Source: Rhodospirillaceae bacterium
Lineage (GTDB): Bacteria; Pseudomonadota; Alphaproteobacteria; UBA6615
DNA length: 64,000 bases
Reading direction: 5' to 3'
Assembly (NCBI GenBank): GCA_018667335.1
Contig: JABIVD010000049.1
Span: 1 to 64,000, forward strand
Both the position numbers and the translations under genes were made by a program. The notes under the pieces are model-generated. The model did not search any database, was not told the DNA's origin, and saw only the letters and a program-made list of their open reading frames with translations. Position 1 is the first letter of the stretch. The number at the start of each line of letters is the position of its first letter. This document shows positions 808 through 16,091 of the stretch, piece by piece.

Positions 808-2016
808 ATGCCAAAACCACAGTTGCGCGCCGATCAGGGCTGGATTTTCGACAATTTCCTGATGCTGTCGGAGAATGAGGATGTCTTGCATCCGGGCATC
901 ATGGGCACGCGTCTCGGACGCGGCTTCATGATGCAGGATCTGACGGCGGTCTACACCAAAGTTACCGGTCGTCGCTCCTTCCCCAAGGCATGGGCGAAGC
1001 GGGCCGCGAAGCTCGAGACGATGGCCAAGGAAGCCGAGGGCAAGGGCCGTCTGGTCTCCGCGCGCCGACTCTATCACCGCGCTGCCCTGTGCTTCGGCCG
1101 CGCCCAGCATCTGGTGCCGGTCCATCGCAATCCCAACAAGGAAGACTGGTACCGGGCGCTCTATCGGAACTACGACAAGCTGATCGCGCTGTCGGAAGGC
1201 ACCATGGAGAAGGTCTCGCTGGAGTTCGCGCCGGGACACAAGGTCCACGCGATCTTCCAAAAGGCGCCCGGCGACGGCCCGAAGCCCACTGTGCTGATCA
1301 TCCCGGGCATGGACGCCCTGAAGGAAGACGTCGGCAACCCGTTCGAGAACGACTACACGATCCGTGGCATGAACATCTGCAGCATCGATGGTCCGGGGCA
1401 GGGTGAGTGCAACTTCAACGAGACCTGGCTCACCGCCGACAATTACCAGAAGGCCGCGTCCGCCGTGATCGACTGGCTGGTCGCGCGCGACGATGTCGAT
1501 GGCGAGAAGATCGGCGCGATGGGCATGTCCATGGGGTCGCGCTGGGGCGTGCAGGTCGGCGCCGCCGACAAGCGTGTGAAGGCTGTGGTCGGCCAGATGG
1601 CCAATGTCGGAAATTTCGACATCATCTTCGAGCAGGCCCAGCCCAACTTCAAACGCATCTTCATGTACATGACCGGCTACACCGACGAGGACGCCTTCGA
1701 CGAGCATATGAAGAGCCACGACTATCTGCCCGACGTGGCCAAACAGCTGACCGTGCCCCATCTCCTTGTCGCGGGTGACATGGATGAGCTGTGCACGCCC
1801 CAGGACATCGAGACCTTCCGCGGCAATCTCGCGGGGCCGAGCGAGCTGTGGCTGTATGAGGGTATCTTCCATCCCATGGGCGAGGTCTCGGCGGAAATCT
1901 ATCCCGCGATGGCCGACTGGATGCAGACCACGCTGAACGAGGGGCGGCCCGCAGGCTACAAGCACACGGCCTATATCGAGGAAGGCACCACCATCGCCGA
2001 GCATGAGCACGGCTGA
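808..2016 (+). CDS. Alpha/beta hydrolase A (FrsA / dihydropseudooxynicotine-hydrolase-like), 402 aa
   Basis: Two-part protein: a helical N-terminal region (about residues 1-150) and an alpha/beta hydrolase core. Visible catalytic elements are the nucleophile elbow GMSMGS (Ser241), an acid in AGDMDEL (Asp324 or Asp326) and a histidine in FHPMGE (His355). The DGPGQG turn before the nucleophile is typical of FrsA-like and C-C-bond hydrolases. I chose the ATG at 808, although the frame stays open further upstream, because a GAGAGGGAGA ribosome site lies just before it and because the paralogue at 3897 begins with the same residues MPKPQLRADQGW. The two proteins align without gaps over 402 residues, about 68 percent identical by my hand count. 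The substrate is unknown; the enzyme is probably cytoplasmic, with no signal peptide. Confidence 0.85.
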   Translation: MPKPQLRADQGWIFDNFLMLSENEDVLHPGIMGTRLGRGFMMQDLTAVYTKVTGRRSFPKAWAKRAAKLETMAKEAEGKGRLVSARRLYHRAALCFGRAQHLVPVHRNPNKEDWYRALYRNYDKLIALSEGTMEKVSLEFAPGHKVHAIFQKAPGDGPKPTVLIIPGMDALKEDVGNPFENDYTIRGMNICSIDGPGQGECNFNETWLTADNYQKAASAVIDWLVARDDVDGEKIGAMGMSMGSRWGVQVGAADKRVKAVVGQMANVGNFDIIFEQAQPNFKRIFMYMTGYTDEDAFDEHMKSHDYLPDVAKQLTVPHLLVAGDMDELCTPQDIETFRGNLAGPSELWLYEGIFHPMGEVSAEIYPAMADWMQTTLNEGRPAGYKHTAYIEEGTTIAEHEHG

Positions 2017-2064
2017 CCGGGTTCAATCGACACCGAGCACGGTTAACCGGGCGTTCCCGACACC
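2005..2064 (+). repeat. Imperfect 30-bp tandem duplication across the hydrolase A stop codon
   Basis: Units 2005-2034 and 2035-2064 match at about 22 of 30 positions. Each starts GAGCACGG and ends CGACACC. The first unit holds the last codons and TGA stop of hydrolase A; the second repeats that end with TAA in the equivalent place. It looks like an old local duplication of the gene tail and has no clear hairpin or T-run. Confidence 0.7.
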
Positions 2065-2116
2065 GTGAAACGGCGCTGAAACTGTCATAGTCTGGGCTGG
2101 AAAGGATCTCCGCCCG

Positions 2117-3853
2117 ATGCACGAGACCGCCATACCGTTCCTGCGCGAAGTCGTCGTCTTCCTGGTGATCGCGGCGATTCTGGTTCCGCTGTTCCAGCGG
2201 GTCCGGATCAGCCCGGTGCTGGGGTTCCTGCTTGCGGGAGTCGTGATCGGCCCGTTCGGCCTGGGCGCGTTCGCCGACCAGTTTGCGTTTCTCGGCTACG
2301 TCGCAATCACGGACATCGAGAGCGTGCGGGTCCTCGCCGAGTTCGGCGTGGTCTTCCTGCTGTTCCTGATCGGGCTGGAATTGTCTCTCGAACGTCTCTG
2401 GTCCATGCGCCGCCTGGTGCTTGGGCTCGGCTCGACCCAGGTGCTGGTCACCGGTCTGGCCATCGGGGCTGTCGCATTCGCCTGGGGCAATTCCCTCAAC
2501 GCCGCGATCCTCATCGGCGCAAGCTTCGCCCTGTCCTCGACCGCCGTGGTGGTGGAGGAGCTGATCCGGCGCAAGGAATTCTCGACCAGGGTCGGCCGGG
2601 CGTCCTTCTCAGTCCTGCTGTTCCAGGATCTGTCGGTCGTGCCGATCCTGATCCTCGTATCCGCCTTTACCGGTGCTGCCGGTGGCAGTTTCCTCGAGGC
2701 GCTGGCGGTCGGGTTCGGGGTCGCGATTGCCGCGGCCGTGGCGATTTTCGTGCTGGGCCGGATCATTCTGCGGCCGCTGTTCCGGCTGGCCGCATCCGCC
2801 CGCGCGCCGGAGTTTTTCGTCGCCATCACCCTGCTGACGGTGATCGGTGTGTCGGCCACCACCGCCGCTGCCGGGTTGAGTCTCGCGCTGGGCGCGTTCC
2901 TCGCCGGGCTGCTGTTGGCCGAGACCGAGTTCCGCCATCAGATCGAGGTCGACGTGCAGCCCTTCAAAGGCCTGTTGATGGGGCTGTTCTTCCTGACCGT
3001 CGGGATGAGCATCGACCTGCAGGTCTTCGCCGGACTGGCGCCGATGATCATTTTGTCGGTGGTCGGCCTGATCGCCCTGAAGGCCGGGCTGCTGACGATC
3101 CTGGGGCGGATGTTCGGCCTGCCGCTCTCCAGTGCCGTCCATACGGGGCTGTTGCTCGGGCAGGCCGGCGAGTTCGGGTTGTTGGTGGTCGGACTGGCCG
3201 TAGCGGGTGGTTTGATCGCGTCCGAGCCGGGGCAATTCTTCCTGATCGTCGCCGGGCTGGCGATGATGGTGACACCCGTGCTGGCCATCGCCGGCGCGCG
3301 GGTCGCCCACTGGCTGGAGCGCGGTGCCGCCCATTCACTCCATTCACTCCAACCCGCGCCCGACGAGATCGCGGAGATCGGCCATCATGTGATCATCGCC
3401 GGTTACGGCCGGGTCGGTGCGGCCATCGCCGCGTTGCTGCGCGAGGAGCGGATCGACTATGTGGCACTCGATCTGGACTCCGAGCTCGTCGGAAAACTGC
3501 GCGCCCATGACGAGCCGGTCTTCTTCGGCGATGGGCGCCGGGCAGACGTGCTGGCCAAAGTCGGCGCCGAGCGTGCCAGCGCCATCGTCTTGACCCTGGA
3601 TGTAGAGCAGGACGCCGAGCAGGCCGTTCGCGATATCCGCAAGCGTTGGCCCGATGTGCAGGTCTATGCCCGCGCGCGCGATCTCGAACATGCCGCCGTG
3701 CTCGATGCCGCAGGCGCGACGCGGACGATCCCGGAACTGGCGGAATCGAGCCTGCAGATGGGCGCGTTCGTGCTCTCGGGGCTGGGATTGCCCCAGGATG
3801 CGGTGAACACATTGGTCGACCGGCTGCGCGAGCGCGGCTATGAAGGAATTTGA
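2117..3853 (+). CDS. CPA2-family monovalent cation:proton antiporter with RCK domain, 578 aa
   Basis: About residues 1-395 are hydrophobic, with 12 or so membrane segments; an RCK/TrkA-N Rossmann domain follows (GYGRVG near residue 424). The N-terminal FLLAGVVIGPFGLG and VFLLFLIGLELS stretches and the QAGEFG motif are typical of KefB/KefC/YbaL-type antiporters, which export K+ or Na+ in exchange for H+ under nucleotide or ligand control. There is no clear TrkA-C domain; the protein ends soon after the Rossmann fold. AAAGGAT precedes the ATG. It sits between two paralogous hydrolases on the same strand (100-base gap upstream, 43 downstream), so co-transcription is likely; ion specificity cannot be read. 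Confidence 0.9.
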   Translation: MHETAIPFLREVVVFLVIAAILVPLFQRVRISPVLGFLLAGVVIGPFGLGAFADQFAFLGYVAITDIESVRVLAEFGVVFLLFLIGLELSLERLWSMRRLVLGLGSTQVLVTGLAIGAVAFAWGNSLNAAILIGASFALSSTAVVVEELIRRKEFSTRVGRASFSVLLFQDLSVVPILILVSAFTGAAGGSFLEALAVGFGVAIAAAVAIFVLGRIILRPLFRLAASARAPEFFVAITLLTVIGVSATTAAAGLSLALGAFLAGLLLAETEFRHQIEVDVQPFKGLLMGLFFLTVGMSIDLQVFAGLAPMIILSVVGLIALKAGLLTILGRMFGLPLSSAVHTGLLLGQAGEFGLLVVGLAVAGGLIASEPGQFFLIVAGLAMMVTPVLAIAGARVAHWLERGAAHSLHSLQPAPDEIAEIGHHVIIAGYGRVGAAIAALLREERIDYVALDLDSELVGKLRAHDEPVFFGDGRRADVLAKVGAERASAIVLTLDVEQDAEQAVRDIRKRWPDVQVYARARDLEHAAVLDAAGATRTIPELAESSLQMGAFVLSGLGLPQDAVNTLVDRLRERGYEGI

Positions 3854-3896
3854 AACCGGAGCCAACATCCGGAAATTGATGGGGGAGTAGAGACAC

Positions 3897-5105
3897 ATGC
3901 CGAAACCACAATTGCGGGCCGATCAGGGCTGGATCTTCGACAATTTCCTGATGTTGTCGGACAACGAGGACATCCTGCATCCCGGTATCATGGGCAACCG
4001 GCTCGAACGGGGGACCAAGTTCGAGGATCTGAACGCGGTCTACTCGAAGGTCTCCGGCCGCCGGTCCTTCCCCAAGGCATGGGGCAGGCGGGCCGCCGTC
4101 CTCGAGGGCATGGCCAAGGACGCCGAGGCCCGCGGGCGGCTGTACACGGCGCGTCAGCTCTACCATCGCGCCGCGATCTGCTTCGGCCGCGCCCAGCATC
4201 TGATCCCGATCCACGGCCAGGCCCAGAAAGTCGAATGGTTCGAGGGCCTTTATCGCTGCTACGACAAGGTCGTCGAATGGTCCGACGGGACCATGGAATC
4301 CAGGACCATCGAGTTCGCGCCGGGCCAGAACGCCTATGCGACCTTCCACAAGGCACCGGGTGACGGCCCCAAGCCGACGATCATCGCGCTGCCGGGCATG
4401 GACCAGGTCAAGGAAGACGTCTGCAACCCGTTCAACAACGAGTTCATCCCGCGGGGCATGAATGTCTGCGCCATCGACGGGCCGGGGCAGGGTGCGTGCA
4501 ACCGCGACGGCACCTGGCAGACCGAGGACAATTACGAGCAGGCCGCCTCCGCGGTCGTCGACTGGCTGGTCACCCGCGACGATGTGGACACCGACAAGAT
4601 CGGCATCTTCGGCATGTCCATGGGCTCGCGCTGGGGGGTGCTGATCGGTGCTGCGGATCCGCGCATCAGTGCCGTGTGCGGCCAGATGGCCAATGTCGGC
4701 AGCTTCGACATGATCTTCGAGCAGGCCCAGCCCAACTTCAAACGCATCTTCATGTACATGGCCGGCTACAGCGACGAGGCCGAGTTCGATGAATTCGTAT
4801 CCCGCCTGGCCCATCTGCCCGATGCGGCGAAGGGCCTGAAGGTGCCGCACATGCTGGTCGCGGGCGACATGGACGAGCTGTGCTCGCCCGACGATATCGC
4901 CACCTTCCGCGCCGGGTTGGGCGGGCCGAGCGAGCTCTGGCTCTACGAGGGCGTGTTCCACCCCATGGGCGAGGTGGCCGGGCAGATCTATCCGGGCATC
5001 GCCGACTGGCTGCTCGAATCCCTGACCAACGGGCGCCCCGACGGCTACGAGAGGACCGTCTATGTGGAAGACGGCACGACCCTTGCCGATTATGATCACG
5101 GCTAA
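3897..5105 (+). CDS. Alpha/beta hydrolase B (paralogue of hydrolase A), 402 aa
   Basis: Same length and architecture as hydrolase A: helical N-terminal region, nucleophile elbow GMSMGS, acid in AGDMDEL and histidine in FHPMGE, all conserved. Differences are concentrated at residues 31-50, 101-150 and 291-310, mostly in the N-terminal helical part that covers the pocket in this family. This suggests divergence in substrate rather than loss of activity. The ATG at 3897 follows GGGGGAG. The DHDPS-like gene begins 21 bases after its stop, so hydrolase B is probably in one operon with the antiporter and that gene. The natural substrate is unknown. Confidence 0.85.
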   Translation: MPKPQLRADQGWIFDNFLMLSDNEDILHPGIMGNRLERGTKFEDLNAVYSKVSGRRSFPKAWGRRAAVLEGMAKDAEARGRLYTARQLYHRAAICFGRAQHLIPIHGQAQKVEWFEGLYRCYDKVVEWSDGTMESRTIEFAPGQNAYATFHKAPGDGPKPTIIALPGMDQVKEDVCNPFNNEFIPRGMNVCAIDGPGQGACNRDGTWQTEDNYEQAASAVVDWLVTRDDVDTDKIGIFGMSMGSRWGVLIGAADPRISAVCGQMANVGSFDMIFEQAQPNFKRIFMYMAGYSDEAEFDEFVSRLAHLPDAAKGLKVPHMLVAGDMDELCSPDDIATFRAGLGGPSELWLYEGVFHPMGEVAGQIYPGIADWLLESLTNGRPDGYERTVYVEDGTTLADYDHG

Positions 5106-5126
5106 GCGATACCGGGAGAGCCGACG

Positions 5127-6089
5127 ATGACCCAGTTCAAGGACTACACACCGGCGGGCGTGATCCCCGCCGCGATTCTCGCCTTCGACGAGGATTTCGC
5201 GATTAACGAGGCCGAGACCCGGCGCCACCTGTCCTTCGTGGCCGCCACGGACGGCATCAGCGCCGTCACGGTGAATGGCCATTCCTCGGAGATCCACGCC
5301 TGCTCCTTCGATGAGCAGCGCGCCATCCTCGATGTGTCCATGGACGAGATCGGAGACAGCCTGCCCCTGATCAACGGTGTTTATGCCGACGGCAGCCACG
5401 AGGCCGCAAAGATCGCGAAGATGGCCGAGGCGGGCGGCGCGTCCGCGCTGCTGTGTTTCCCGCCTCATTCCATGGGCATGGGCGGCATCCGCCACCGCCC
5501 CGAGATGGCCATGGCCCATTTCAAGACCATCGCCGACGCCACGGATTTGCCGCTGATCGTCTTCCAGTATGGCGACGAGCTGGCCTATTCCCTCGACACG
5601 CTGGTCGGATTGGCCGAGGACATCCCGTCGATCAAGGCGGTCAAGGACTGGTCGCCGCCCCAGGCCCATGCGCGTCACATCAACGCGCTGCAGAACCTGC
5701 CGCGACCGGTGAATGTCCTGTCGACCAACTCCGCCTGGATGATGTCGTCCCTCGTGATGGGCGCGAACGGCCTCCTGTCGGGTGCCGGCTCGGTGATCGC
5801 CGACATGCAGGTCGCCCTGTTCCGGGCCGTGCAGGCCGACGATCTTGCGACCGCGCGTGATGTCGCCGAGCGCATGTGGCACGCCACCGAGGCCTTCTAC
5901 GCCGACCCGTTCGGCGACATGCACAACCGCATGAAGGAAGCGCTGGTCCATCTGGGCCGCCAGGACCGGGCCGTGGTGCGCCCGCCGTTGGTCAAGCTGC
6001 CCGCCGCCGAGATCGCGCGTATCGGTGACGCCATGGCTGCTGCGGGCCTGACCCGCGATGGGTTCGAGGTCCGCGAAGCGGCGGAGTAG
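5127..6089 (+). CDS. Dihydrodipicolinate synthase / N-acetylneuraminate lyase superfamily protein, 320 aa
   Basis: TIM-barrel class I aldolase. The Schiff-base lysine is visible in SIKAVKDWS, and the N-terminus (GVIPAAILAF) is typical of the superfamily. The substrate motifs are unusual: the GTTGE loop of DapA is replaced by VNGHSSE, and the conserved tyrosine of the PYY motif is replaced by PPHSMGMGG. It is therefore unlikely to make dihydrodipicolinate; a separate canonical dapA is present at 33342. It more likely cleaves or condenses a keto acid, possibly one produced by the neighbouring hydrolases. GGGAGAG lies upstream of the ATG. Last gene of the hydrolase/antiporter cluster. Confidence 0.8.
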   Translation: MTQFKDYTPAGVIPAAILAFDEDFAINEAETRRHLSFVAATDGISAVTVNGHSSEIHACSFDEQRAILDVSMDEIGDSLPLINGVYADGSHEAAKIAKMAEAGGASALLCFPPHSMGMGGIRHRPEMAMAHFKTIADATDLPLIVFQYGDELAYSLDTLVGLAEDIPSIKAVKDWSPPQAHARHINALQNLPRPVNVLSTNSAWMMSSLVMGANGLLSGAGSVIADMQVALFRAVQADDLATARDVAERMWHATEAFYADPFGDMHNRMKEALVHLGRQDRAVVRPPLVKLPAAEIARIGDAMAAAGLTRDGFEVREAAE

Positions 6090-6305: not shown

Positions 6306-9179
6306 ATGCGCAGATACCCCATGGCCATCCCTGACACCGAAGACGCATTGGAAATGCTTGCTGAATTGCAGGCCCGCTACAACGACCTTGTCGATGCGGC
6401 CGCGGATTGGCTTTGGGAAGTCGATGCCGAGATGCGGTTTACCTATGTTTCGGATGGAATGCGGAAGGTCAATGGCGGGGTAGATCCGACGACCTACTAC
6501 GGCAGAACCCGGCAAGAATTGGCGGATGTAGAAGCTGCCGATCCGGCAATCTGGGGGCGCCATCAGGAGACTCTCCGCGCGCGCCGGCCGTTTCGTAACT
6601 TCCGGTTTACCCATATCGGATCCAACGGTGACCGGCACAACTGGTCCGTATCCGGCACGCCGGTGTTCAATGCGGCCGGGGACTTTCTCGGCTACCGCGG
6701 CCTCGGTCGAGATATCACCGAGCGGGCCCGCATGGCCGCGGAAATCGAGCAAGTCAACGCCGAACTACAAAGTGAGATTGGGGAACGCGAGCTTGCCGAG
6801 GAAACTCTCCGCGCGGCGCGCGACGAGCTCGACCAGAGGGTTCAGGAGCGAACGGCGGAGCTCCGGGCGTCAAACGAGGCCTTCGAGAACGAGATCACAG
6901 ACCGCAAGCTGGCCGAGGTAGCGATCCGTGAAAGCGAGCTGCAATATCGTGAACTGGTCGAGCTTTCCCCCGACGGCATTATTGTGCATGTCGCAGGAGA
7001 AATCATATTTGTGAATGATGCTGTTGCCCGAATGTTGGGCTATGGATCGCCGTCGGAATTGGTTGGCATGGAGGCAATCAATCTGATCGCACCAGAATTT
7101 CGGTCCGACATCGATGAACGTCGACGGCAGCTGCTACAGGGCAATTTTTCCGCGCAGCGTTCGGTTGATTTTTTGACATCTGGCGGATCGCGAGTTTCGG
7201 TCGAACGAAACGCGGCGCGTATTATTTGGGAAGGCAAGGAAGCGATCCTCGTATCGTTGCGTGACGTAACCGACCGCGAAATGGCCGAACGACAGCTCGT
7301 CGAAAGCCGGGATCAACTGCGAACGGTCACGAATAATCTGCCGGTCTGGATTGCACGCGTCGATACAGACCGTTGCTACGTTTTCATGAACAAGACCGGC
7401 GCTGCCTGGCTCGCGCGTTCCCCTGAGGAGATCATTGGCCAGTCGATGGGTGATGTTTTTGGCGCGGAACTCGACAAGTTCCGATCATTTGTCGACCAAT
7501 CCCTGGCAGGTGAGTATGTCTCCTTCGTCGAGGAGGTGTCCTATCCCGACGGCAAGACCCGTGTTGTACGCGTCAACTATGTGCCCCAGTTCGACACAGC
7601 TGGAGAGGTCGAGGGTTTTAATTCTCTGATTGAAGATATCACCGAACTCCGGCAGGCCGAGCAGACCATTCGAGACAGCGAGGAACGCTTTCGCGGCATG
7701 ATCGAAAACTCACCCTCGGCGATTTCTCTGAAAGACCTCGAAGGCCGATTTCAGCTCGTGAACTCAAAATTCGAGGAATGGTACGGATATTCGTCCGAAC
7801 AGGTCACTGGTTCAGCGCCCGGAGAATATTTTTCGCCCGAATATGCCGCACTCTACAAGGCCCAGGATGAAGAAGTTTTCGCGACGGATATGCCCAACGA
7901 ATGGCGTCAAAAACTCCCGTTTGCCGACGGCAGCGACCGCTACATGATCATCAACAAATTTCCGGTCCGGAATGGGCGGGGGCGGACGGTTGGTATCGGG
8001 ACCATCACGACCGATATTACCGACCATCAGAAAACCCAGGAACAGCTCCATCAATCACAGAAGATGGAGGCGGTCGGACAGCTGACCGGTGGTATCGCCC
8101 ATGATTTCAATAATCTGTTGGCGGTTGTCCTGGGCAATGCCGAGATTCTGGGGGACAAACTGGGCGAGGACAGCCAACTCGCGGCGATCGAGCGGGCGGG
8201 AAAGCGCGGTGCTGAATTGACCGAACGTCTGCTGTCTTTCTCCAGGCAACAGGTATTGGCGCCGCAGTCGGTCAAGTTGGAGACATTGATTCCCGGCTTG
8301 TTGAATCTCATAAGCCGAACCCTTGGTGAACAGGTAAATATCGTCCAAGAGATGCCTGCAATTCTGTGGCCGGTCCATGCAGATCCGGGGCAGTTCGAGA
8401 ACGCGCTTTTGAATCTGGCTATCAACGCCAGAGACGCGATGCCGGAAGGCGGAACACTGACCGTACACTGCGCCAATATGGTGTATCGCGAACCCGACGA
8501 GCGCTTGGGTGAGGAACTCGCCACCGGTGAGTATGTGCAAATTTCGGTTTGCGATACGGGCTCGGGTATGTCCGACGAAACCCGCGCGCATGCATTTGAG
8601 CCCTTCTTTACCACCAAGGATGTCGGGGCCGGCAGCGGTCTCGGTTTGTCGATGGTGTATGGCTTTGCCCGGCAATCCGGGGGCGGTGTTTTTATCCAAA
8701 GCGCACCGGGCGAGGGCACAGATGTGGTTATGTATCTTCCGCGCAGCGGCAGCGGGCCAACTGAACAGGAAGCCAGTTCGGTTGACGTATTGCAGGCCGG
8801 AAGCGGGGAACTAATTCTGGTTCTGGAAGACGATCCCGACATGGGTATGTTTGTGAGAAATTTCCTGGAAGGATTGTCGTATCAGGTGGAAGTAGCGTCC
8901 GACGCTGCGGCCGCGCAGAAAGTCCTCGATGCGCATGGAACGGAGATTGACCTGTTGCTATCCGACGTGGTTCTGCCGGGTGGTGTTAGCGGACCGCAAT
9001 TTTGCGCCGAGGCAAAGCGCATCAACCCGGCTTTGAGGGTCGTATTCATGACTGGCTATGACCCGGACATCGGAACCGAGGCCGGTGTATCGGAAATAGG
9101 TGATGCGCTGCTGACCAAACCATTCAAACGGGCGGAACTGGCGAATACCCTGTACGAGATATTCCTGTCCAGAAACTGA
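6306..9179 (+). CDS. Hybrid PAS-domain sensor histidine kinase with C-terminal receiver, 957 aa
   Basis: Order of domains: PAS near residues 15-140; a coiled coil around 145-210; PAS domains near 215-330, 335-455 and 460-580; HisKA with the phospho-accepting histidine in GGIAHDFNN (His599); HATPase with the N-box NLAINARDAMPEGG (near 703) and the GSGLGLSM glycine box; then a receiver (VLEDDPDMG near 838) with acceptor aspartate in LLSDVVLP (Asp887). No membrane segments are visible, so it probably senses a cytoplasmic signal. An ATG at 6321 is an alternative start; 6306 has a GGGTG about eight bases upstream. No separate response regulator is adjacent. Confidence 0.9.
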   Translation: MRRYPMAIPDTEDALEMLAELQARYNDLVDAAADWLWEVDAEMRFTYVSDGMRKVNGGVDPTTYYGRTRQELADVEAADPAIWGRHQETLRARRPFRNFRFTHIGSNGDRHNWSVSGTPVFNAAGDFLGYRGLGRDITERARMAAEIEQVNAELQSEIGERELAEETLRAARDELDQRVQERTAELRASNEAFENEITDRKLAEVAIRESELQYRELVELSPDGIIVHVAGEIIFVNDAVARMLGYGSPSELVGMEAINLIAPEFRSDIDERRRQLLQGNFSAQRSVDFLTSGGSRVSVERNAARIIWEGKEAILVSLRDVTDREMAERQLVESRDQLRTVTNNLPVWIARVDTDRCYVFMNKTGAAWLARSPEEIIGQSMGDVFGAELDKFRSFVDQSLAGEYVSFVEEVSYPDGKTRVVRVNYVPQFDTAGEVEGFNSLIEDITELRQAEQTIRDSEERFRGMIENSPSAISLKDLEGRFQLVNSKFEEWYGYSSEQVTGSAPGEYFSPEYAALYKAQDEEVFATDMPNEWRQKLPFADGSDRYMIINKFPVRNGRGRTVGIGTITTDITDHQKTQEQLHQSQKMEAVGQLTGGIAHDFNNLLAVVLGNAEILGDKLGEDSQLAAIERAGKRGAELTERLLSFSRQQVLAPQSVKLETLIPGLLNLISRTLGEQVNIVQEMPAILWPVHADPGQFENALLNLAINARDAMPEGGTLTVHCANMVYREPDERLGEELATGEYVQISVCDTGSGMSDETRAHAFEPFFTTKDVGAGSGLGLSMVYGFARQSGGGVFIQSAPGEGTDVVMYLPRSGSGPTEQEASSVDVLQAGSGELILVLEDDPDMGMFVRNFLEGLSYQVEVASDAAAAQKVLDAHGTEIDLLLSDVVLPGGVSGPQFCAEAKRINPALRVVFMTGYDPDIGTEAGVSEIGDALLTKPFKRAELANTLYEIFLSRN

Positions 9180-12566: not shown

Positions 12567-13070
12567 TCAGGCCAGCTCAAAGGCTTCGCGGCTCACATGA
12601 TCGAGGTTGCGGCCCTCGATGCGGATCAGGCGCGTGTCGCCCTCACGCTTGGGGGCGTGCAGGCGCCCGGCCGGGTAGGCGACGGCCATGCCCGGGTCGA
12701 GGTCATAGGTCTTCACCGGCTCGACCTTTCCCGGGGTGTCGCCCGAGGGTGCCTGCAGCGCCTTGAATTCGGTCATCACGGTCTGGCCGGTCGCCTGGCC
12801 GTAGATTGCCCAGGTCGGCCCATGGTCGTGCGGCGGTGCGGATGCTGAGCCGAGATAGACATGCGCGCAGATGCAGAATCCGAGCTCCGGATCCTCGAAG
12901 AGAATTTTGCGTTTCACTTCGTTGTCCGGGCCGAGATGGGTGCCGACGAACTGTTCATCGGCGAGAAACCGTTCGAGTACGCCGCGCACGGCTTCGAGGT
13001 TTTCGTCGCTCGAGCCCTTGCTCAGGATGTCGTGACATTCGGTGCCGAATTGTTCGATCGTCAAGCTCAT
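12567..13070 (-). CDS. Cupin protein resembling cysteine dioxygenase, 167 aa
   Basis: Small single-domain cupin. A three-histidine iron site typical of thiol dioxygenases is visible: His81 and His83 in PPHDHG, and His138 in RLHAPKR. The WAIYGQATG stretch after the HxH is also seen in cysteine-dioxygenase relatives. Such enzymes oxidise a thiol to a sulfinate with Fe(II) and O2; whether cysteine is the substrate cannot be decided here. It is first gene of a two-gene minus-strand operon with the M20 peptidase, which begins immediately after its stop. AGGGACC lies before the start. It is divergent from the rhodanese gene across a 112-base region. Confidence 0.75.
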   Translation of the reverse strand: MSLTIEQFGTECHDILSKGSSDENLEAVRGVLERFLADEQFVGTHLGPDNEVKRKILFEDPELGFCICAHVYLGSASAPPHDHGPTWAIYGQATGQTVMTEFKALQAPSGDTPGKVEPVKTYDLDPGMAVAYPAGRLHAPKREGDTRLIRIEGRNLDHVSREAFELA

Positions 13071-13182
13071 GGTCTGGTCCCTGGTCTTCGGATGGATGCT
13101 GAAGCGTGTCGAATTTTGTCACGCTGACGCTATCATGCACCGGACCCGCACCGAATCTCAATACACGTAGGTTTACTGTAGA

Positions 13183-14769
13183 ATGACCGATATGAAATCC
13201 GAGATACTACGCGCCGCATTGACTGCGGACGACGAGATAGCGCTGCTTGATCTGCGCGAGCAGGGGGAGTTCGGCGCCTGTCACCTGTTCTGGGCGGTCA
13301 ACACGCCGCTGAGCCGGCTCGAATTCGAAGTAGCTCGATTGGTTCCCCGGCTCGGCACTCCCATTGTTGTCATCACGGCCGGTGACGCGGACCTTGCAGG
13401 TCGCGGGGCCGTGGCCCTGACGGACCTGGGCTATTCCGACGTCACGATCTGTCCCGACACGCCCGATGGCTGGGTCGCCGCCGGCTTCACGCTCTATTCG
13501 GGCATCAACGTGCCCAGCAAGGCGTTTGGCGAGGCGGTGGAGCATCATTACGGCACGCCCGCGCTGCACGCGTCCGAGCTCAAGGCGATGCAGGACCGGG
13601 GCGACGATCTGGTCGTCCTCGATTCCCGCACGTTCGCCGAATACCACAACATGAATATCCCCCAGGGGATCAGCGTACCGGGCGGCGAGCTCGCCTACCG
13701 GGTGCGCGACCTGGCGCCGTCGGAAGAGACGCTGGTCGTGGTCAACTGTGCGGGGCGCACCCGCAGCATTCTCGGCGCCCAGTCGGTCATCAACGCAGGT
13801 ATTCCCAACAAGGTCATCGCGCTGGAGAACGGCACGATGGGCTGGCACCTCGCCGGGCTCGAACTGGAGCATGGCCGGACGGACCGGTTCCCGTCGGGTG
13901 ATCCGGAGTCCCTCGACGCGACGATCGCCATGCGCGACCGGATCGCGGCCGAGCACGGTGTCGAGACGATTGATCGCGCCCGGCTTGCCGAATGGCAAAG
14001 CGAAGCCGAGGGGCGCACGTTGTATCTGCTCGATGTGCGCGACCCTGATGAGTTCGCCACCGGGCACCTGCCGGGATCGCGCTCGGCGCCGGGCGGGCAA
14101 CTCGTACAGGCGACGGATTTCCAGATCGGCGTGCCCAACGGCCGCATCGTGCTGATTGACGATACGGGTGTAAGGGCGACAATGACCGCCCATTGGCTGT
14201 TGCAGATGGGCTGCCGCGATGTGTCTGTCCTCGATGGCGGATTGACCGGTGAGCTGGTGACCGGCGCCGACACCGATGTGCAAACAGCGACAACGCCGAC
14301 AATTGCGGCCGACGCTCTGGCCGCGCGCCTGTCCGATGACGACCTGGCCGTGCTCGATCTCGGCGAGAGCCGGGTGTTCCGGAAAGGACATGTTCCCGGC
14401 GCGCAATGGGCGATCCGCTCGCGGATCGCGGCGACAGGCCCCGCGCTTCCGGACACGGGAACGCTGGTGCTTACATCCGACGACGGGCGGTGCGCAGCGC
14501 TGGCGGTCGAGGAAGCAGAGACACTCACGAATGCGGAGGTTCTGGTGCTGGCTGGCGGCACCAACGCCTGGGTTGCTGCGGGACAAAAGACCGAGGCCGA
14601 CCCCACTTATCCAGCCGACGAGGCCTGCATCGACGTCTATCTGCGCGCCTATGATCGCAACACCGATGTGGAAGCGCGAATGCAGGAATATATCGACTGG
14701 GAGGTTGCCCTGATCGATCAGGTCGCCGCCGACGATGATGTGCAGTTCAAAATGGGGCCGAGTGCATGA
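13183..14769 (+). CDS. Four-domain rhodanese-like protein, 528 aa
   Basis: Four consecutive rhodanese modules: about residues 5-105, 120-230, 245-350 and 365-465, followed by a 60-residue helical tail. Only the second has a catalytic cysteine, in NCAGRTRS (Cys189). The corresponding loops of domains 1, 3 and 4 read TAGDAD, IDDTGV and TSDDGR and lack cysteine, so they are probably structural or binding modules. Rhodaneses carry sulfane sulfur as a persulfide. The last codons overlap the next gene as ATGA (14766-14769), which implies translational coupling to the flavin monooxygenase. No signal peptide is present. Confidence 0.88.
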   Translation: MTDMKSEILRAALTADDEIALLDLREQGEFGACHLFWAVNTPLSRLEFEVARLVPRLGTPIVVITAGDADLAGRGAVALTDLGYSDVTICPDTPDGWVAAGFTLYSGINVPSKAFGEAVEHHYGTPALHASELKAMQDRGDDLVVLDSRTFAEYHNMNIPQGISVPGGELAYRVRDLAPSEETLVVVNCAGRTRSILGAQSVINAGIPNKVIALENGTMGWHLAGLELEHGRTDRFPSGDPESLDATIAMRDRIAAEHGVETIDRARLAEWQSEAEGRTLYLLDVRDPDEFATGHLPGSRSAPGGQLVQATDFQIGVPNGRIVLIDDTGVRATMTAHWLLQMGCRDVSVLDGGLTGELVTGADTDVQTATTPTIAADALAARLSDDDLAVLDLGESRVFRKGHVPGAQWAIRSRIAATGPALPDTGTLVLTSDDGRCAALAVEEAETLTNAEVLVLAGGTNAWVAAGQKTEADPTYPADEACIDVYLRAYDRNTDVEARMQEYIDWEVALIDQVAADDDVQFKMGPSA

Positions 14770-16091
14770 CGACGAAACGCCAACTCCATCTCAATCTCTT
14801 CATCCAGTCGCGGGGCCATCACGAGGCTGCGTGGAACCATCCCGACGCGTCGCCCATGGGGCTGATGGATGTCGGCTACTATCAGGGGATCGCCCAGCGC
14901 GCCGAGGCGGGGCTGTTCGATTCTATCTTCTTCGCCGATATCCTTGCCGCGACGGACGACGCCGCACTCAGCGGCAAAGTCTGGCTGGAGCCGATCACCC
15001 TGCTGGCCGCCATCGCGGCGGTGACCGAGCGGATCGGGCTGATCGCGACCGCGTCGACCACATACTCGCTGCCGTTCAACCTGGCCCGGCAATTTTCCTC
15101 GATCGACCACATCAGCCATGGTCGTGCGGGCTGGAACATCGTCACCACCTGGATGAAGGACGCCGCGCGCAACTTCGGCGACACACGCGATGTCAGCCTG
15201 GATGATCGTTATGTCCTCGCCGAGGAATTCGTCGAGATCATCAAAGGACTCTGGGACAGCTGGGCCGACGACGCGGTGGTCGATGATCGGGAGAATGGCA
15301 TTTACGCGCGTCCTGAACGTATCCGTGCCATCGACCATGACGGCCCGCATTACTCGGTTGCCGGACCGCTCAATCTGCCTCGTTCACCCCAGGGGAGGCC
15401 GGTGCTGGTGCAGGCGGGCTCATCGAATACGGGCCGGGACTTCGCGGCCCGCCATGCCGAAGCGATCTTCACCGCGCATCTGGAGAAGGCGACGGCGCAG
15501 GAGTTCTACGCCGACATCAAGGCGCGTATCGCCAAGGCGGGCCGACAGGCCGATCAGGTTCTGATCCTCCCGGGCGTGAACCCGATGATCGCCTCGACGG
15601 AGGCCGAGGCGAAGCGCCTGGTCCAGGAGCTGAACGAAAGCGCTGACCCCGAGGTCGGACGGCGGACCCTGTCCAGCCGGTTCGGTGGGCATGACTTCTC
15701 CCATCTGCCCCTCGATGAGATTCTGAAGCCTGAAGATTTTCCCCACCCGGATACCGTCGAGGCATCGCGCAGCCGTGCGGTGATGGTTGTGGGGCTCGTC
15801 GAACGCGAGAGCGTGACCTTGCGCCAGCTGCTGGCGAAGCTGGCGGGTGCGCGCGGACACTTCACCTTCGCCGGCACGCCCGAACAGGTGGCCGATCTGA
15901 TCGAGGACTGGTTTCAGGACGGCGCCGCCGACGGCTTCAACGTCATGCCACCGATTTTCCCCGGTATGCTCGACGCGTTTATCGATGAAGTGGTTCCGAT
16001 CCTCCAGGCGCGCGGCCTGTTCCGGACCGAATATGCCGGCACGACCCTGCGTGAGCATTACGGGCTGGACCGCCCGCCGGCGTGGTCGTGA
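14766..16091 (+). CDS. FMN-dependent monooxygenase, NtaA/SnaA/DszA family, 441 aa
   Basis: Luciferase-like TIM-barrel monooxygenase. The N-terminal LHLNLF and the later YSLPFNLARQFSSIDHISHGRAGWN block are characteristic of the NtaA/DszA/DmoA group, which use reduced FMN from a separate reductase to oxidise nitrilotriacetate, sulfones, dimethylsulfide and similar compounds. No flavin reductase gene is adjacent. Its start overlaps the stop of the rhodanese gene by four bases, which favours an organosulfur substrate, but that is inference. Length is normal for the family. Confidence 0.87.
   Translation: MTTKRQLHLNLFIQSRGHHEAAWNHPDASPMGLMDVGYYQGIAQRAEAGLFDSIFFADILAATDDAALSGKVWLEPITLLAAIAAVTERIGLIATASTTYSLPFNLARQFSSIDHISHGRAGWNIVTTWMKDAARNFGDTRDVSLDDRYVLAEEFVEIIKGLWDSWADDAVVDDRENGIYARPERIRAIDHDGPHYSVAGPLNLPRSPQGRPVLVQAGSSNTGRDFAARHAEAIFTAHLEKATAQEFYADIKARIAKAGRQADQVLILPGVNPMIASTEAEAKRLVQELNESADPEVGRRTLSSRFGGHDFSHLPLDEILKPEDFPHPDTVEASRSRAVMVVGLVERESVTLRQLLAKLAGARGHFTFAGTPEQVADLIEDWFQDGAADGFNVMPPIFPGMLDAFIDEVVPILQARGLFRTEYAGTTLREHYGLDRPPAWS

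Follow-up and report, generated by a model that had tools for sequence, protein, structure and literature searches.

A conserved pair of a DHPON-hydrolase-like alpha/beta hydrolase and a DHDPS-superfamily protein lacking the usual tyrosine in an uncultured alphaproteobacterial family

The closest described relatives of the hydrolases considered here include enzymes that break carbon-carbon bonds. Among them are 2,6-dihydroxypseudooxynicotine (DHPON) hydrolase of the pAO1 nicotine pathway (PDB 2jbw) and the polyketide-trimming C-C hydrolases AntI, Ayg1p and Wdyg1p (6hxa, 8qd1, 8qd7), which act in pigment biosynthesis. According to PMC11165489, the naphthol ligand of AntI contacts the GLDS loop and Asp188 of Ayg1p is placed in a network for keto-enol tautomerism. 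Here we describe a locus from a Rhodospirillaceae bacterium (GCA_018667335.1) that encodes two paralogous hydrolases of this kind, HydA and HydB, a cation antiporter and an aldolase-like protein of the dihydrodipicolinate synthase (DHDPS) superfamily. The window, i.e. the whole 64,000-nucleotide stretch that was analysed, begins at base 1 of contig C37 in a genome of 3.55 Mb and 62 contigs. HydA and the aldolase-like protein form the conserved core of the cluster.

By sequence, the closest solved relative of HydA (808..2016, plus strand; 402 residues from the ATG at 808) is DHPON hydrolase (7.5e-18, or 3.9e-19 with a profile). An AlphaFold2 model of HydA gave VIA Z scores of 32.4 against 2jbw, 26.9 against AntI, 26.8 against FrsA and 26.5 against Ayg1p. 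The match to 2jbw covers 333 residues (model residues 14-392, approximately 22% identity) and includes the N-terminal helical domain, such that the two proteins share a two-domain fold in which their triad residues align. They are nevertheless far apart in sequence and have different genomic neighbours, and the sequence match does not reach the near-invariant residues 1-48 of HydA. Throughout the clade residues 1-60 of HydA and HydB are nearly invariant, and the sequence match to DHPON hydrolase starts only at about residue 49. AntI, Ayg1p and Wdyg1p likewise share the fold, the GXSXG triad and a GxD loop with HydA, but at 15-21% identity. Both hydrolases pass the FrsA-like Pfam profile PF06500 (48.4 and 40.3 bits, cut-off 22) and fall far below the curated NCBIfam FrsA cut-off (NF003460; 48.7 and 45.3 bits against 477). 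On the basis of profile, fold, triad and acidic GxD-type loop, HydA and HydB belong to the FrsA/DHPON hydrolase/AntI/Ayg1 group of alpha/beta hydrolases. The degradation route by ester or C-C hydrolysis, proposed in a preliminary description made from the sequence, is thus upheld as far as the kind of enzyme goes, the best solved relative being a nicotine-pathway C-C hydrolase.

Alignment predicts the GXSXG-type triad expected of this group in HydA and HydB, with the nucleophile Ser241 of HydA in a GMSMG motif (1528..1530), Asp326 at 1783..1785 and His355 at 1870..1872; Ser241 of HydB (3897..5105, plus strand; also 402 residues) lies at 4617..4619. The HydA loop Gly167-Met168-Asp169-Ala170 (1306..1317) is the counterpart of GLDG and GLDS in Ayg1p and AntI, and aligns with the GLES loop of DHPON hydrolase. 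Its equivalent in HydB is Gly167-Met168-Asp169-Gln170 (4395..4406). All 32 aligned hydrolase rows carry GMDA or GMDQ at this point, and the fourth residue follows the paralogue: alanine in 15 of 15 HydA rows, glutamine in 9 of 9 HydB rows and in all four rows of a further paralogue, HydC. The remaining four rows, from loci that are not among the family genomes searched, have glutamine (L016, L025) or alanine (L021, L027). HydA and HydB align without gaps and are identical at 274 of 402 positions, in agreement with the roughly 68% counted in the preliminary description. That description also had them differing mainly in the cap, which does not hold, as the differences are spread over both parts of the protein (39 of the first 130 residues and 89 of the remaining 272). 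Divergence is densest in residues 101-130 (17/30) and 361-402 (21/42).

The aldolase-like protein (5127..6089, plus strand; 320 residues) matches PF00701 with 99 bits and a structure model of it (pLDDT 70.3) finds the barrel fold of the superfamily (Foldseek 1.3e-15), but its 91.8 bits fall short of the curated NCBIfam score for DapA (206.15). Classical members of the DHDPS/N-acetylneuraminate lyase superfamily have a GTTGE loop and a conserved tyrosine. In the present protein NGHSSE (5274..5291) stands in place of the loop and Phe146 (5562..5564) in place of the tyrosine by alignment, as had been noted before, while the Schiff-base lysine is kept as Lys173 (5643..5645). Lys173 and Phe146 are each found in 17/17 aligned DHDPS-like rows, and NGHSSE or NGHASE replaces GTTGE in 15 of them, the two exceptions being second DHDPS proteins of loci L017 and L019. 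Relatives with 47-49% identity are encoded on plasmids, either catabolic or large, in Delftia, Achromobacter, Variovorax and Rhodococcus; those of Delftia and Rhodococcus that were aligned have NGHxSE, Phe146 and an HNRMKEA stretch in common with the window protein. The relative on Delftia pLME1 is flanked by a MaoC-type gene and a transporter gene and has chlorocatechol-type genes close by.

In the window the four genes lie on the plus strand in the order HydA, antiporter, HydB, aldolase, separated by 100, 43 and 21 bp according to their open reading frames, just as the preliminary description had set out. This neighbourhood is more than chance: it recurs in related genomes, and all four genes have low ratios of nonsynonymous to synonymous substitution (dN/dS 0.036-0.129 against relatives). 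Promoter-like sites (2, with 1.6 expected) and terminator-like sites (3, with 2.9 expected) are near chance level, and neither of the two promoter-like sites falls in the gaps between the four genes. Taken as a unit, the four-gene layout is nothing unusual: a conserved pair happens to be co-located with a duplicate and with an antiporter that is optional. The aldolase is at the HydA locus in 12 of 15 genomes with HydA, or in 12 of the 13 where the contig continues; it is lacking in G011, and the contigs of G003 and G023 end too soon. Among the 24 genomes of the family, 12 have both HydA and the aldolase, three have HydA alone, two the aldolase alone and seven neither (Fisher 0.010, uncorrected for kinship). 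HydB joins HydA in two genera only (g1 and g6), where it comes after HydA and, in most cases, ahead of the aldolase; in genera g2 and g7 the aldolase follows HydA. Variants of the latter layout are seen in L014, where a short unlabelled open reading frame separates the two, and in L017 and L019, where a second, divergent DHDPS gene (approximately 18% identical) and a cupin gene lie between them on the opposite strand (L017 11244-12691, L019 11245-12692). Of the four families, HydA with the aldolase is conserved, HydB is found in two genera and the antiporter is lacking from the locus in 7 of the 15 genomes with HydA. Genome G002 carries the HydA-HydB-aldolase locus twice (L011 and L013, on separate contigs), and in G017 only a fragment of the aldolase is present, where a contig ends.

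The best-supported reading is that, in this alphaproteobacterial family, HydA and the aldolase-like protein make up a small unit for catabolism in which hydrolysis is followed by an aldolase step; we regard this reading as about evenly poised. In such a scheme HydA would use Ser241-Asp326-His355, most likely to cleave a C-C bond next to a ketone in a retro-Claisen type reaction, ester hydrolysis being the alternative, and Asp169 of the GMD loop would help the keto-enol step. The aldolase-like protein would then cut a 2-oxo-acid product through a Schiff base on Lys173, by retro-aldol or related lysine chemistry. HydB would be an old duplicate that, carrying Gln170 beside the loop where HydA has Ala170, probably acts on another substrate of a related kind. 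The neighbours of L015, L017 and L019 hint at an aromatic or heteroaromatic substrate. These include a CoA ligase, a thiamine pyrophosphate (TPP) enzyme and a flavin adenine dinucleotide (FAD) monooxygenase similar to salicylyl-CoA 5-hydroxylase, with a molybdenum-hydroxylase large subunit upstream; in the nicotine pathway, too, a molybdenum hydroxylase, a C-C hydrolase and an FAD hydroxylase act in sequence (covered in part by PMC11656995). TPP enzymes are encoded near HydA and the aldolase in these three loci and near Hyd genes in MarineAlpha3 loci. In the window's genome none of these genes is beside HydA: the FAD monooxygenase match (49%) and the TPP ortholog (78%) are on other contigs, and the 16 kb analysed with the TPP ortholog contain no HydA relative. 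We therefore claim no shared pathway for the TPP enzyme and HydA.

Several observations weigh against a hydrolase-aldolase unit. The fold does not prove C-C cleavage, as the structural score of FrsA is nearly as high as those of the C-C hydrolases, and FrsA is not known as a C-C hydrolase of this type. The HydA model has a mean pLDDT of 73.5, and residues 1-57 are poorly modelled. G011 has HydA, HydB and the antiporter with no aldolase; conversely, G014 has a purU-like gene, the aldolase and an M20 gene in the usual order with HydA missing from the locus. The stretches analysed on either side of the aldolase's relatives in Delftia, R. jostii and Rhizobium (L059, L061, L062) contain no HydA relative. 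The order of the M20 and glutamyl-tRNA-synthetase genes further downstream is likewise the same in both contexts, such that the linkage of HydA and the aldolase may in part be background synteny. HydA and HydB could instead be ordinary FrsA-like esterases, lactonases or peptidases that perform no C-C cleavage, with the aldolase as a neighbour by chance. The Pfam matches to esterase and peptidase families, the FrsA Z score of 26.8 and the kept order of unrelated genes around the locus all fit this explanation, but the entry that leads the structural ranking by 5.5 Z units is a C-C hydrolase, and the GxD loop is unlike the HG-type loop seen in the aligned esterase and MHETase sequences. We consider it unlikely, though with an appreciable chance of being right.

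The antiporter (2117..3853, plus strand; 578 residues) enters two further explanations. It resembles the KefB/KefC CPA2 antiporters in having exchanger (PF00999) and TrkA_N domains, but scores below the curated NCBIfam cut-offs for KefC (438.2 against 752 bits) and CPA2 (227.1 against 238.3 bits). In the preliminary description all four genes formed one degradation system, in which the antiporter coped with the acid formed. The shared strand, the small gaps and the presence of the antiporter with the hydrolases in 8 of 15 HydA genomes, under purifying selection, speak for such a system, yet the antiporter occupies two different positions and no intact copy is found at the other seven loci (G002, G004, G007, G012, G015, G018, G019). 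It follows HydA in G000, G003, G005 and G006 (the G003 contig ends inside it) and follows HydB in G011, G020 and G022; in G023 it probably follows HydB too, since 11 residues matching its start are seen just before the contig ends, with the remainder on another contig. Both G002 loci retain deletion remnants: L013 (11268-11558) has residues 1-34 joined in frame to 516-578, and L011 (11212-11361) only residues 529-578, while each keeps HydA, HydB and the aldolase. Having been lost, moved or reduced to remnants beside kept hydrolases and aldolase, the antiporter is not a required part; it would be a passenger or general stress gene in the gene run of some species, and the proton-handling role proposed for it is not supported. 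A single four-gene degradation system is accordingly most improbable. Intact antiporters have dN/dS of 0.08-0.10, which argues that the protein works somewhere. E. coli KefC acidifies the cytoplasm when glutathione adducts form, and the hydrolases might make or remove a reactive compound against which a Kef-like antiporter gives such protection. KefC is indeed the top NCBIfam match of the antiporter (438 bits), but this score lies under the KefC cut-off, and the losses of the antiporter from hydrolase loci also count against electrophile protection, which we regard as very unlikely.

Together the hydrolases make up a new clade, most of whose members come from a single alphaproteobacterial family of uncultured, mostly marine bacteria. 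A HydA-type protein was found at E 1e-100 in 15 of 60 relatives, all in the window's family, and at E 1e-60 in five genomes of an even draw of 385 from the class, again all in that family. In a draw of 398 genomes from the phylum, HydA at E 1e-45 and the aldolase at E 1e-60 were found only in the window's own genome. A scan of named genomes gave 22 loci, 18 of them in family genomes; weaker relatives (approximately 36%) are on Haloarcula and Cupriavidus plasmids. FrsA-like genes more broadly (PF06500, E 1e-10) were detected in 21 of 24 family genomes, with up to eight per genome, but in none of the 36 other members of the class that were searched (Fisher 2.5e-13, uncorrected for kinship). Among the genomes searched, this FrsA-like expansion is confined to the window's family. 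Genome G000 has many FrsA-type paralogues, in at least 10 places on contigs C5, C11, C13, C19, C37 and C56.

In a tree of 32 hydrolases and six outgroup rows, from which two L022 proteins were left out, all HydA proteins form one clade of 15 (99/98) that includes every HydA adjacent to an aldolase, and HydB forms one clade of nine (100/100). The split between HydA and HydB is older than the parting of g1 and g6. A constraint holding HydB and HydC together is not rejected (p 0.257), and HydC may be the ortholog of HydB. Gene conversion between HydA and HydB was considered and rejected: no clear tract was found, and third positions at shared residues look saturated, with an agreement of 0.615 within genomes and of 0.595 (A-B), 0.620 (A-A) and 0.623 (B-B) between genomes. 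HydC, the lone paralogue of other genera, lies elsewhere in four genomes (L018, L020, L023, L026), where its neighbours encode two ABC exporters, an FMN dehydrogenase and oxidoreductases of the Gfo/Idh and GMC types; in L026 (10001-11298) its match is in two pieces near residue 353, resembling a frameshift. The neighbours of L016 gave no clue.

Upstream of HydA in the window is a divergent enoyl-CoA hydratase-like gene, cut by the contig start. Downstream, between the aldolase and an ABC-F gene, lies a gene for a multi-PAS hybrid histidine kinase (6306-9179) in a stretch of lower GC content (0.57); the kinase gene is absent from the same place in G006 (L057) and is probably a recent insertion. 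Further on (12567-16091) are genes for a cupin-like protein, a rhodanese protein with four matched stretches and an NtaA/DmoA-type FMN monooxygenase. The cupin and rhodanese genes keep their order in relatives, and this group of genes may concern sulfur compounds.

A literature search by title and start of abstract, with subscription journals mostly outside it, returned nothing describing this cluster or the FrsA-like expansion, and a term search of PMC6946804 found none of hydrolase, dihydrodipicolinate or Alphaproteobacteria. No polyketide synthase was seen among the neighbours scanned. What is real in the cluster as first reported is the pairing of HydA and the aldolase, joined in two genera by HydB, and the antiporter is removed from the mechanism. 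The Ala170/Gln170 difference would offer a direct handle on the divergence of substrates between the paralogues.

Three features of this family merit attention: the new DHPON-hydrolase-like clade, its pairing with an aldolase-like protein that lacks the tyrosine, and the FrsA-like expansion. As a doubtful and more speculative extension, the family might have built a private toolkit of DHPON-hydrolase-type C-C hydrolases for dissolved organic matter that is hard to degrade, in which the substrates of HydA and HydB would be set in part by Ala170 and Gln170, and HydA would feed a tyrosine-less aldolase of pyruvate type, which would make a hydrolase-to-aldolase route new to the literature. The clade of C-C-hydrolase-like enzymes and the lineage-specific expansion of that group may be relevant to the use of resistant dissolved organic matter by such bacteria.

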